Below, piece after piece: positions 3,261 to 11,846 of a stretch of 11,925 bases of DNA. Position 1 is the first letter of the stretch, and every line of letters starts with the position of its first letter. The notes under the pieces are model-generated. The model made no database searches. It was not told where the DNA came from and saw only the letters and a program-made list of their open reading frames with translations. Source of the stretch: Deltaproteobacteria bacterium (lineage in GTDB: Bacteria > Bdellovibrionota_F > JAHFAK01); assembly GCA_023250585.1 (NCBI GenBank), contig JAHFAK010000073.1, positions 1 to 11,925 on the forward strand, read 5' to 3'. A program made the translations under genes and the position numbers.

Positions 3261-3417
3261 GTAATGCCTCAGTTATTAGGGAGTAGGCATGTTGCAAAAA
3301 AATATTCCTATCGAGCGCGCTTTCCTGTTCTTAATAATATTATGGAAGCGACGTCGATAGGAATATTTTTTTGCAACATGCCTACTCCCTAACTCACCCC
3401 ATTAACTGAGCCATTAC
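3261..3417. mobile_element. 157-bp MITE-like element with GTAA ends and 8-bp target duplication
   Basis: The outer ends are inverted repeats, GTAATGCCTCAGTTATT (3261-3277) and the complement of 3401-3417, agreeing at 15 of 17 positions. Inside lies a perfect 39-bp inverted repeat (3276-3314 with 3354-3392) around a 39-nt centre that pairs weakly with itself. The right arm has about 10 nt (3393-3400 region) that the left arm lacks, apparently lost between two AGTTA copies. An exact 8-bp direct repeat flanks the element. There is no room for a transposase, so it would move in trans. Ends beginning 5'-GTAA and 8-bp duplications are the hallmarks of IS66-family elements, so an IS66-type enzyme is the best guess. 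The right terminus supplies the TAA stop of the pseudouridine synthase gene. Confidence 0.75.
3296..3372. terminator. Bidirectional intrinsic-terminator-like hairpin inside the MITE
   Basis: A 7-nt A-tract (3296-3302), a perfect 12-bp stem (3303-3314 with 3354-3365) and a 7-nt T-tract (3366-3372) form the classical two-way terminator layout. The loop is long (39 nt) but can fold further (CGCTTTCC with GGAAGCG). On the minus strand it lies between the pseudouridine synthase gene and rplC and could end or attenuate transcription there. The stem continues beyond the A/T tracts, which may reduce efficiency. Confidence 0.5.
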
Positions 3418-7592: not shown

Positions 7593-7613
7593 CACTTTTT
7601 ATCCTATAAAGTG
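7593..7613. promoter_or_regulatory. Inverted repeat, possible activator site between secA and the small gene
   Basis: CACTTT (7593-7598) and AAAGTG (7608-7613) form an inverted repeat with a 9-bp spacer. It lies about 85-105 bp upstream of the sigma-54 -24 element, the usual distance for a bacterial enhancer-binding protein, and about 25 bp upstream of the secA -35. Such short symmetric sites can arise by chance, so the assignment is tentative. Confidence 0.25.
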
Positions 7614-7697: not shown

Positions 7698-7714
7698 TTG
7701 GCACAAAGATTGCA
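7698..7714 (+). promoter_or_regulatory. Sigma-54 (-24/-12) promoter
   Basis: TTGGCACAAAGATTGCA matches the RpoN consensus YTGGCACGnnnnTTGCW at every core position except the G after TGGCAC. GG (7700-7701) and GC (7712-7713) are separated by exactly 10 bp, the strict spacing this sigma factor requires. The start would be near 7725, giving a leader of about 17 nt with an AAAGG ribosome site before the small ORF. Transcription would need ATP-dependent activation by an enhancer-binding protein, none of which is encoded in the window. Confidence 0.75.
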
Positions 7715-7741
7715 GTATTATCTCTATGAAAGGTATGCATT

Positions 7742-7894
7742 ATGAAAGCATATATTATCAACAAAATTAAAAAGGAAAAAGAGAGACAGAGAGAACACGA
7801 AATGGTTCTTGAGCTACCACTTGAATTTCCAAAAGCAAAAGAACGAAAAGAAGAAAAGAAAGAAGAAAAGCGTGTTATCGAAATAGAGCTTTAA
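7742..7894 (+). CDS. Small, highly charged 50-residue protein of unknown function
   Basis: I do not recognise a named family. The product starts MKAYIINKIKKEKERQREHE, has a central hydrophobic/proline segment (VLELPLEFP), then a Lys/Glu run, and ends RVIEIEL. About 28 of 50 residues are charged (13 Glu, 11 Lys, 4 Arg), there is no Cys, and no signal peptide or membrane segment is present. The two charged blocks are likely helical or disordered. It is supported as real by the sigma-54 promoter and AAAGG ribosome site placed directly in front of its ATG, by a double stop (TAATAA) at the end, and by its position in an otherwise unexplained gap. An ORF on the opposite strand (7522-7764) is ruled out because it overlaps two promoters. 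A role in regulation or protein interaction is only a guess. Confidence 0.6.
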   Translation: MKAYIINKIKKEKERQREHEMVLELPLEFPKAKERKEEKKEEKRVIEIEL

Positions 7895-8007: not shown

Positions 8008-8907
8008 ATGATGAAAACTAGAATTTTTACTTTCAGTATGTTTTGTTCTTTAGTAATTCTCTCATGCGGGGGAGATGATGCTGATCCAAACTTTACGATG
8101 ACAGCTGAAGATGCACAAGCCGTCTCAAGTGATGATACCGAAGCCGTTGCTCAAATTTATACTGACTCGGTAGATGGAGCTAGTTCATATTTTAAAGCTG
8201 CTCTTCAGGGTACCAATGAAGAATTCTTAAAAAATACCGCTGCTACCGTTAGTTGTGGAGGAGGTGGAACACTCGCTATCGATATACCGACACTGGCAAC
8301 GTTAACCACCGTTGCTACAAGCGGCGGGACTTTAACATTAACAGCTACTGCAACTAATTGCGTATATACTTCATCAACAACTGACGATGCTGGAAATACC
8401 TATACATACGACACAACAACAAATGGTACAATTACAACAGAGATCACCGTACCTGCAGGTGGCTATACGGCCAGTCAGCTTGGAACAGGCGCAATTCTAC
8501 AAACACTTGTAGCTACAGTTTCAGGCACTGATGTAACATTGACCTATAAATATACAGTCAGCGACGGATCAGAAGTAAGTGCATCTGAAAAGAGCACTTT
8601 TACTATTACTGTTAATCCGGCAGATAGCGATTATTACATGACTGGATCCATCACAACTGCAGGGACATATACGGAAACTGTAGACGGGACAACCTATACA
8701 GGAACCTGTGATGCTACTGCAACCATTGGAGTTGATACTACACTGAACCCAGAAATATTTACCAATAGTGCTACTATCGAAGGAAAAGTTGCAGTCTCAT
8801 GTAAAGATTCTACAGGAGTTTCAGGAAGCTATGCATTCTCATATGCCGTAGAACTTACAAATGGAGAAGTCACAACAATTACAACTACTCCTGTACCCGC
8901 GCTATAA
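8008..8907 (+). CDS. Secreted Thr-rich lipoprotein of unknown function
   Basis: No named family is recognised. An N-terminal signal peptide (Lys and Arg, then a hydrophobic core FTFSMFCSLVILS) ends in a plausible lipobox, ILSC, with Cys20 as the lipidated residue. The -2 Leu is less usual. After it comes GGDDAD, an acidic linker. The mature part is rich in Thr, Ser, Ala and Gly, has short alternating beta-like stretches, no further membrane segment, and four cysteines (83, 118, 234, 265) that could form two disulfides. This suggests an extracytoplasmic beta-rich protein, probably held at a membrane, exported through the SecA pathway. AAGGAG lies 7 bp before the first of two tandem ATGs; the second (8011) is equally possible. 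The gene converges on the HAD phosphatase gene with only 8 bp between stops. Confidence 0.75.
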   Translation: MMKTRIFTFSMFCSLVILSCGGDDADPNFTMTAEDAQAVSSDDTEAVAQIYTDSVDGASSYFKAALQGTNEEFLKNTAATVSCGGGGTLAIDIPTLATLTTVATSGGTLTLTATATNCVYTSSTTDDAGNTYTYDTTTNGTITTEITVPAGGYTASQLGTGAILQTLVATVSGTDVTLTYKYTVSDGSEVSASEKSTFTITVNPADSDYYMTGSITTAGTYTETVDGTTYTGTCDATATIGVDTTLNPEIFTNSATIEGKVAVSCKDSTGVSGSYAFSYAVELTNGEVTTITTTPVPAL

Positions 8908-10424: not shown

Positions 10425-10498
10425 GCGCCCGTAGCTCAGCGGATCAGAGCATCTGACTACGGATCAGAAGGCCAGGGGTTCGAATCCCTTCGGGCGCG
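10425..10498 (+). tRNA. tRNA-Arg (anticodon ACG)
   Basis: The 74-nt cloverleaf is complete. The acceptor GCGCCCG pairs perfectly with CGGGCGC, the D arm is GCTC/GAGC with a 9-nt loop, and the anticodon arm is TCTGA/TCAGA around CTACGGA. The variable loop has 5 nt, and the T arm AGGGG/CCCTT (one G-T pair) encloses TTCGAAT. The loop places ACG at positions 34-36, decoding CGN arginine codons once A34 is edited to inosine by TadA. No CCA is encoded after the discriminator G. The next gene downstream (DUF1016) is of accessory type, so the 3' end could be an integration site, but no second copy of that end lies in the window. Confidence 0.95.
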
Positions 10499-10793: not shown

Positions 10794-11846
10794 CTATTTT
10801 CCTTTTAGTTCTCTCATGATTTTCTGTTTCAATTTCTTGGCATCTGGAATTTTCCCTACCAATGCTTTTGGTAATTTCGTCGTCAACCTGTATTCGGCCA
10901 CCCCCACTGGTTTATGAATCCCACGAAGAGCAAACTCAACTTCGAATTTATCGCGATCAGCACATAAGATGATGCCAATTGATGGATTTTCATCTTTTTC
11001 TTTGACGTACGTATCAAGTAGATTCAGATAAAAATTCATCTTCCCTTCAAACTCAGGCTGGAAAGCAACCGCCTTGAGTTCAATGGCCACCAAGCACTTC
11101 AATCGACGATGATAAAAGAGCAAGTCGATAAAATATTCTTTTTTGTTCGCCTTGATCCGATACTGATTGCCAAGAAAGGCAAATCCATAGCCCAGTTCCA
11201 GAAGTACGTCTTTAATGGCCAGCACCATTCGGCTTTCCATTTCACGTTCAAGAATAGGCTTGGTGACGCCCAAAAAGTCGAGCATATAAACATCCTTCAT
11301 GGCCTTGTCTGCCTGCTCGGCCAAATGAACGGGAAGTGCTTTTTGAAAATTATGCTGTTTGGAGCTCAATTGGTGTCTTTCGTAAGCTTTGGCTTTAATC
11401 TGGTTTAACAGGACGGCGCGGCTCCAGCCCATCTTTTTCGTGGCTTCCAAATAATAAGCCCTGGCTCCTTGGTCCTTGACCTTCTGTAATACGATGAGAT
11501 TTTGCCCCCAAGGCAATTCTCCAACAAGTCGTTGGAGAATTTGCTCATCCTGATATTCAAGATAAATCTGCCGCATGAGCCATAAATTTTGCGGGGAGTA
11601 GCCGGTGCTATTTGGAAAATCTTTTTTCAGGTCTCGTGATAACCGTTCAACAACAGCTTTGCCCCACCCAAGTTTTTCTTGCTTGTCGACAATATCTTTA
11701 CCAATCAACCAATACAAACCAACCAGTCCTTTGTTCAGAATTCGCGATGCAGATATCTGAGCACTTCGAATACGAGATTTAATGCCGTTGAGAAATTCAA
11801 CGTAGTCATTGGTGGTCACTAAATTATTTGGCTTTGTTTTTTTCAT
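10794..11846 (-). CDS. DUF1016 (YhcG-like) PD-(D/E)XK nuclease
   Basis: A full-length (350-residue) member of the family named YhcG or PDDEXK-nuclease DUF1016. The N-terminal domain (about 15-160) has the conserved LYWLIGKDI, GYSPQNLWLMRQIY and LPWGQNLIVL blocks. The C-terminal nuclease domain (about 185-340) has FIDLLFYHRRLKCLVAIELK, giving the catalytic Asp241 and Glu256-x-Lys258, so it appears active. Family members are commonly carried on accessory islands, often beside type I restriction-modification genes; the exact function is not settled. The ATG at 11844-11846 directly follows the TGA of the upstream frame, so translation is probably coupled, with GGGAGG about 11 bp before it. Base composition is richer in G+C than the housekeeping genes (31 of 60 in each of two lines counted, against 21 of 60 in a line of rsh), suggesting transfer. 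Confidence 0.9.
   Translation of the reverse strand: MKKTKPNNLVTTNDYVEFLNGIKSRIRSAQISASRILNKGLVGLYWLIGKDIVDKQEKLGWGKAVVERLSRDLKKDFPNSTGYSPQNLWLMRQIYLEYQDEQILQRLVGELPWGQNLIVLQKVKDQGARAYYLEATKKMGWSRAVLLNQIKAKAYERHQLSSKQHNFQKALPVHLAEQADKAMKDVYMLDFLGVTKPILEREMESRMVLAIKDVLLELGYGFAFLGNQYRIKANKKEYFIDLLFYHRRLKCLVAIELKAVAFQPEFEGKMNFYLNLLDTYVKEKDENPSIGIILCADRDKFEVEFALRGIHKPVGVAEYRLTTKLPKALVGKIPDAKKLKQKIMRELKGK

Follow-up and report, generated by a model that had tools for sequence, protein, structure and literature searches.

Does the 50-codon reading frame that follows a sigma-54-type promoter in this DNA encode a genuine protein made under sigma-54 control, and, if it does, to what kind of protein family does it belong? 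The window, by which we mean the whole stretch of 11,925 nucleotides that was analyzed, carries this frame between a divergent secA gene and a gene for a putative lipoprotein, and the features on which our discussion is based are as follows:

7593–7613, no strand assigned: palindrome CACTTTTTATCCTATAAAGTG, a tentative candidate enhancer (activator) site ~100 bp upstream of the promoter
7699–7714, forward strand: sigma-54 –24/–12 element TGGCAC-AAAGA-TTGCA (TGGCACAAAGATTGCA), perfect consensus, predicted +1 at ~7725
7728–7733, forward strand: putative ribosome-binding site GAAAGG, read from the sequence, 8 nt before the ATG
7742–7894, forward strand: small-protein gene of 50 codons plus stop (MKAYIINKIKKEKERQREHEMVLELPLEFPKAKERKEEKKEEKRVIEIEL), assigned by its profile family membership
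8008–8907, forward strand: downstream gene for a 299-residue putative lipoprotein with a signal ending LVILSCGGDD, not a conserved neighbor of the family and possibly co-transcribed

Promoter, leader, and product in the window

The first-pass annotation had placed an RpoN promoter with exact GG-N10-GC spacing about 28 bp before the ATG, had given the frame a ribosome site of its own, and had described a product with over half of its residues charged and a central VLELPLEFP segment, and these descriptions all hold. The window sequence reads TGGCAC-N5-TTGCA, with TGGCAC at 7699–7704 and TTGCA at 7710–7714, and exactly 10 bases lie between the GG (7700–7701) and the GC (7712–7713), as in the pattern GG-N10-GC within TGGCAC-N5-TTGCW. 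This is the sole sigma-54 site in the window with no mismatch, the runners-up having two, and ~27 sites with up to three mismatches would be expected there by chance. The element lies 27 bases from the ATG at 7742 and, taking C7713 as –12 and +1 at ~7725, the predicted leader is 17 nt in length, which is just long enough to hold the ribosome site. In the product, 28 of the 50 residues (56%) are K, R, or E, there is no D, the net charge is +2, and VLELPLEFP occupies residues 22–30. AlphaFold2 predicts a helix at residues 2–19 with the remainder unstructured, at low confidence (pTM 0.28).

An activator site would be looked for 80–200 bp upstream of a sigma-54 promoter; the candidate palindrome is a 9-3-9 inverted repeat with one mismatch, and is the genome's only perfect copy of CACTTT-N9-AAAGTG. 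Across the whole genome, copies with at most one mismatch are no commoner than the control, and the palindrome is neither common to the other sigma-54 promoters of this genome nor over-represented genome-wide.

Absence of rpoN had been named in advance as an observation that would speak against sigma-54 control; the genome does encode rpoN (PF00309, E 1.2e-17), together with AAA+ enhancer-binding proteins, represented by 11 strong and 3 weak Sigma54_activat (PF00158) domains. The pattern TGGCAYN5TTGCW occurs 71 times in the whole genome (2.24 Mb), compared to twice for the reversed pattern, such that most sites of this class in the genome are likely to be real, and a sigma-54 consensus site before a gene in this genome is much more likely to be real than not.

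Several other sites in the same genome deserve mention in their own right. Another strict sigma-54 site (L030:1501–1516) stands before a different 50-residue ORF (MSLRDAEKIILQAGGWENIPPLHRKIIVEELSLKDYKRIKNRYIVKKKIR), and near-identical sequences bearing the MKRAFITEHGPLVRRLSELRK reading frame follow sigma-54 sites at the ends of several contigs (L017, L031, and L063). Two of the contigs with these repeats (C14 and C91) also carry activator genes, and the repeated sequences suggest repeated, putatively sigma-54-controlled modules.

Membership and distribution of the protein family

Homologues were sought by a single-sequence search of 59 genomes, followed by a three-row profile. The single-sequence search gave only weak matches, and a single-sequence scan of genome contigs gave none, the window copy having diverged too far to be linked to its relatives without a profile. 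One of the weak matches, from the second of the two genomes that the set holds for the window's phylum, is a complete 54-codon ORF (MLIHPAIIDKLNRERQKQQWQPLPLQIERPVEWQRPEQDDEEHTSFGNVIEIQL) with the same order of parts, and a second, from a 9-Mb genome, reads MLDAFIIEEIKRRERLRREEYERPVAELPLPMPEDRPHRKTDTENEKPSRGVVVIDLCV. With the three-row profile, matches with E ≤ 1, mostly one full-length match each, were obtained in 178 of the 193 genomes of the phylum to which the 9-Mb genome belongs, and the named records of this phylum are Myxococcota (Myxococcus xanthus, Corallococcus, Archangium, Anaeromyxobacter, and others). The family is also present in 68 of 95 genomes of a further phylum, while only 7 matches came from 386 broadly sampled bacteria, and it is thus common in a few phyla and not universal. 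A weak match in another genome (G328, locus L169) was judged to be spurious.

Family members are stand-alone ORFs of about 50–66 codons, with an N-terminal hydrophobic helix, a central (E)LPLPxP, and a C-terminal (R)GVVIID[L/Y/F]. Their plan can be written as MLDAFIIEEIKRRE...RPxxELPLPxP...RGVVIID[L/Y/F] or, in full, as MLDAFIIEE[IL]KRRE followed by charged residues, then RPxxELPLPxP, an acidic linker that varies, and a near-terminal RGVVIID[L/Y/F]. The window protein follows this plan through its segments AYIINKIKKE, ELPLEFP, and KRVIEIEL. It has MKAY and R-V in place of the family-majority MLDAF start and the G before VVIID, but other accepted members also deviate at these positions, and we therefore do not treat those residues as defining.

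Short charged ORFs arise randomly and blur similarity searches, and one might accordingly ask whether the window holds only a low-complexity charged ORF beside a coincidental GG-N10-GC motif. However, against a leave-out profile of 30 named homologues, from which the window protein was excluded, the window ORF scores 36.2 bits over its full length, a score reached by none of 5000 composition-preserving shuffles, none of which exceeds 19. It is also the sole significant match (E 1.3e-7) among 3571 ORFs in 239 kb of its own genome. Together with the excess of genomic sigma-54 sites over the reversed pattern, and the recurrence of such sites upstream of homologues (see below), this makes coincidence extremely improbable.

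A frame conserved in relatives with purifying codon substitution had been anticipated for this ORF, and an unconserved frame or frameshifted homologues had been named as grounds for rejecting it. The frame is conserved in the two phyla in the proportions given above, the listed homologous frames contain no internal stops, and close ungapped pairs of myxobacterial copies give dN/dS values of 0.08–0.16. Values of 0.3–0.8 for distant ungapped pairs were set aside, as indels misalign these pairs. This conservation also bears on whether the transcript could instead be a regulatory small RNA in which the reading frame is incidental, as might be supposed from an ORF that is short and of low complexity, and from the fact that known small RNAs, Qrr and GlmY among them, are transcribed from sigma-54 promoters. 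It is the amino acid sequence that is conserved, at the low dN/dS noted and with frames intact in many genomes, and Rfam matches one tRNA in the window and nothing else, so that we consider a small RNA very unlikely. We take the reading frame to be, almost certainly, a real protein-coding gene.

This protein has no Pfam match up to E = 10, and a Pfam search with 31 members returned only stray single low-complexity matches (the best being Granin, 0.0012). NCBIfam and PHROGs gave insignificant matches only, a search of plasmids and an annotated phage collection for the family gave nothing significant, and literature searches found no description of it. The gene is a familiar kind of sigma-54 target, and its protein has no meaningful counterpart in the Pfam, NCBIfam, and PHROGs collections. 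Family members are also found on IMG/VR viral contigs (L227:5001–5162, L228:5001–5201, and L229:5001–5201). The L228 and L229 copies adjoin genes that we take to be amidase-like and GIY-YIG-like, and the L228 copy has a doubled motif at its end (RVIIIDT...IGIVIDL).

Sigma-54-like sites and neighboring genes across homologues

The expectation that the same promoter would be found upstream of homologues was borne out for most copies, although few have it in the phylum with 68 carriers among 95 genomes. A copy was counted as having a site if the 150 bp before it contain GG-N10-GC with 8 or more of the 11 consensus bases matched. By this rule, 28 of the 42 non-redundant copies have one, compared to a mean of 2.75 (maximum 9) in 200 dinucleotide shuffles and 7 for the mirrored pattern. 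At a threshold of 9/11, the corresponding values are 15 of 42, against 0.4 and 0, and when one copy is counted per taxonomic family, 10.6 of 18 have a site, against 1.1. Upstream regions of other genes at the same loci reach 8/11 in 7% of cases. The copy in the other genome of the window's phylum has TGGCCCGGTCTTTGCT 54 nt before its ATG, and the M. xanthus copy (L194) has the candidate sigma-54-like site GGGTTCTTAATTTGCA, the Myxococcota sites being degenerate in the –24 half. Judged from these upstream regions, predicted sigma-54 control is conserved among family members both in the Myxococcota and in the window's phylum. In the phylum with 68 carriers, only 3 of 20 listed upstream regions reach 8/11, one of them perfect, and sigma-54 control is thus not defining for the family as a whole.

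The perfect site in that phylum (L254) scores 11/11 and lies 71 nt upstream, most relatives there being without one, which would point to sigma-54 wiring having been lost or gained in the course of the family's history. One genome in which no rpoN match was found (G083) has a family copy without a sigma-54-like site. Five reduced genomes are without both rpoN and the family, while other genomes without the small protein retain rpoN, and a tie between the two absences is only suggestive.

The genes around the family also differ between lineages. Neighbors were clustered with composition scoring, as antisense ORFs in GC-rich DNA confound plain ORF clustering. In many Myxococcota, a Polyketide_cyc2/SRPBCC gene (a neighbor cluster of 29 loci) stands before the family gene, often with what we take to be a glpX-like fructose bisphosphatase gene further upstream, and the family gene sometimes precedes enolase; the neighbors in another genome (G001) differ again from those in both the window and the Myxococcota. 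The small gene with its predicted promoter is the constant unit, while its neighbors vary between lineages.

The lipoprotein gene at 8008–8907, the product of which has no Pfam match, nevertheless raises the question of which gene the promoter serves. Between 7500 and 9620, no terminator-like site was seen, and sigma-70-like sites are no more frequent than in shuffles, such that, with no terminator or distinctive sigma-70 promoter before the lipoprotein gene, read-through into it is possible. In the window's genome (G000), a crude classifier assigns the product a signal-peptide, membrane, or lipoprotein-like character at 46 of the 63 sigma-54 sites with a downstream ORF. Sigma-54 regulons are generally biased to exterior functions (PMC3162934), and this bias seems to hold here, in a large predicted regulon from a little-sampled phylum, where the small protein belongs to the minority of predicted cytosolic products. 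All of this would suit a promoter whose target is the lipoprotein gene, with the small ORF as only a leader upstream of it, or as the opening gene of an operon of two. On the other hand, a ribosome site of its own lies close to the small ORF, the protein sequence is conserved between phyla, and sigma-54-like sites are kept where the downstream neighbors differ or point in the opposite direction. We thus find it improbable that the lipoprotein gene is the promoter's real target, and co-transcription of the two genes, while possible, would not reduce the small ORF to a mere leader.

Taking these points together, the stretch 7699–7894, as far as can be read from the DNA, holds a complete small gene: a promoter, a leader with a Shine–Dalgarno site, and an ORF of a conserved family. 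The sigma-54-driven small protein proposed in the first-pass annotation is upheld by the intact, conserved family frame, by the presence of rpoN, and by the sigma-54-like sites that recur upstream of homologues. Control of the small gene by sigma-54 is predicted with high confidence from these sites, and the 50-residue protein very probably belongs, as a genuine member under sigma-54 control, to a family of small proteins as yet undescribed.

Two observations elsewhere in the window are separate from this gene. At 3276–3392, a 58-nt inverted repeat (1-nt gap, 86% complementary) adjoins a pseudouridine synthase gene on one side and, on the other, what is presumably the gene for ribosomal protein L3; it may form a strong hairpin, either terminator-like or a small mobile element. 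At 10794–11846, there is a YhcG-type PDDEXK nuclease with a DUF1016 N-terminal domain, just after a tRNA at 10425–10498, which is plausible as an insertion site for a mobile, defense-like gene.

A possible mode of action and its meaning for the family

On the basis of known sigma-54 biology, RNA polymerase–sigma-54 would wait in a closed complex at the 7699–7714 promoter, to be opened once a signal is sensed by an enhancer-binding protein, which may bind close to the palindrome (7593–7613). By analogy with such systems, expression would be inducible, the small protein being made on demand and only while the enhancer-binding protein is active. The anatomy of the product suggests, speculatively, a soluble, mostly disordered cytosolic adaptor, with possible contact points at the N-terminal amphipathic helix (AYIINKIKKEKER; LDAFIIEEIKRRE in the family), the central ELPLxFP, and the C-terminal strand-like VIEIEL (RGVVIIDL/Y in the family). 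A variable charged linker would join these points, and the adaptor may tie or block a conserved partner. An adaptor that contacts its partners through short motifs would fit a protein that is conserved at both ends and in the middle but free to vary in its charged linker, and we put this mode of action forward as a tentative model. The combined reading, of a sigma-54-switched, conserved small protein that is a candidate adaptor, is in our view probably the best explanation of the locus as a whole.

The gene resembles sigma-54 (RpoN)-dependent genes served by enhancer-binding proteins in its –24/–12 consensus, in the presence of rpoN and activators, and in its tight spacing to the start codon, but differs in that its target is a 50-residue protein of an unnamed family. 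Small sigma-54-driven products are known elsewhere, such as PspG in Escherichia coli, the Qrr RNA in Vibrio, and the GlmY RNA in enteric bacteria. The likeness is that in each case a sigma-54 promoter supplies a short product on demand, and we claim no homology: PspG is a membrane protein and Qrr and GlmY are RNAs, whereas the window product is a charged, predicted soluble protein of a separate family.

A protein that is kept in over 90% of the sampled genomes of one phylum, and ~70% of those of another, has no entry in Pfam, NCBIfam, or PHROGs, and the starting point that led to it was unannotated sequence from a lineage with few sampled genomes. As M. xanthus carries a copy, its role is testable at once in a genetic model, and one with many sigma-54 activators without known targets. 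That sigma-54 sites recur in lineages far apart suggests that on-demand expression matters to the function of the protein, and the copies on viral contigs hint at a process that phages find worth controlling. At its most far-reaching, and we consider this rather doubtful, the family could be an unrecognized regulatory micro-protein present almost throughout the Myxococcota and allied phyla, acting as an adaptor switched by sigma-54 that would control a conserved core process and that phages may have taken up to steer their hosts.
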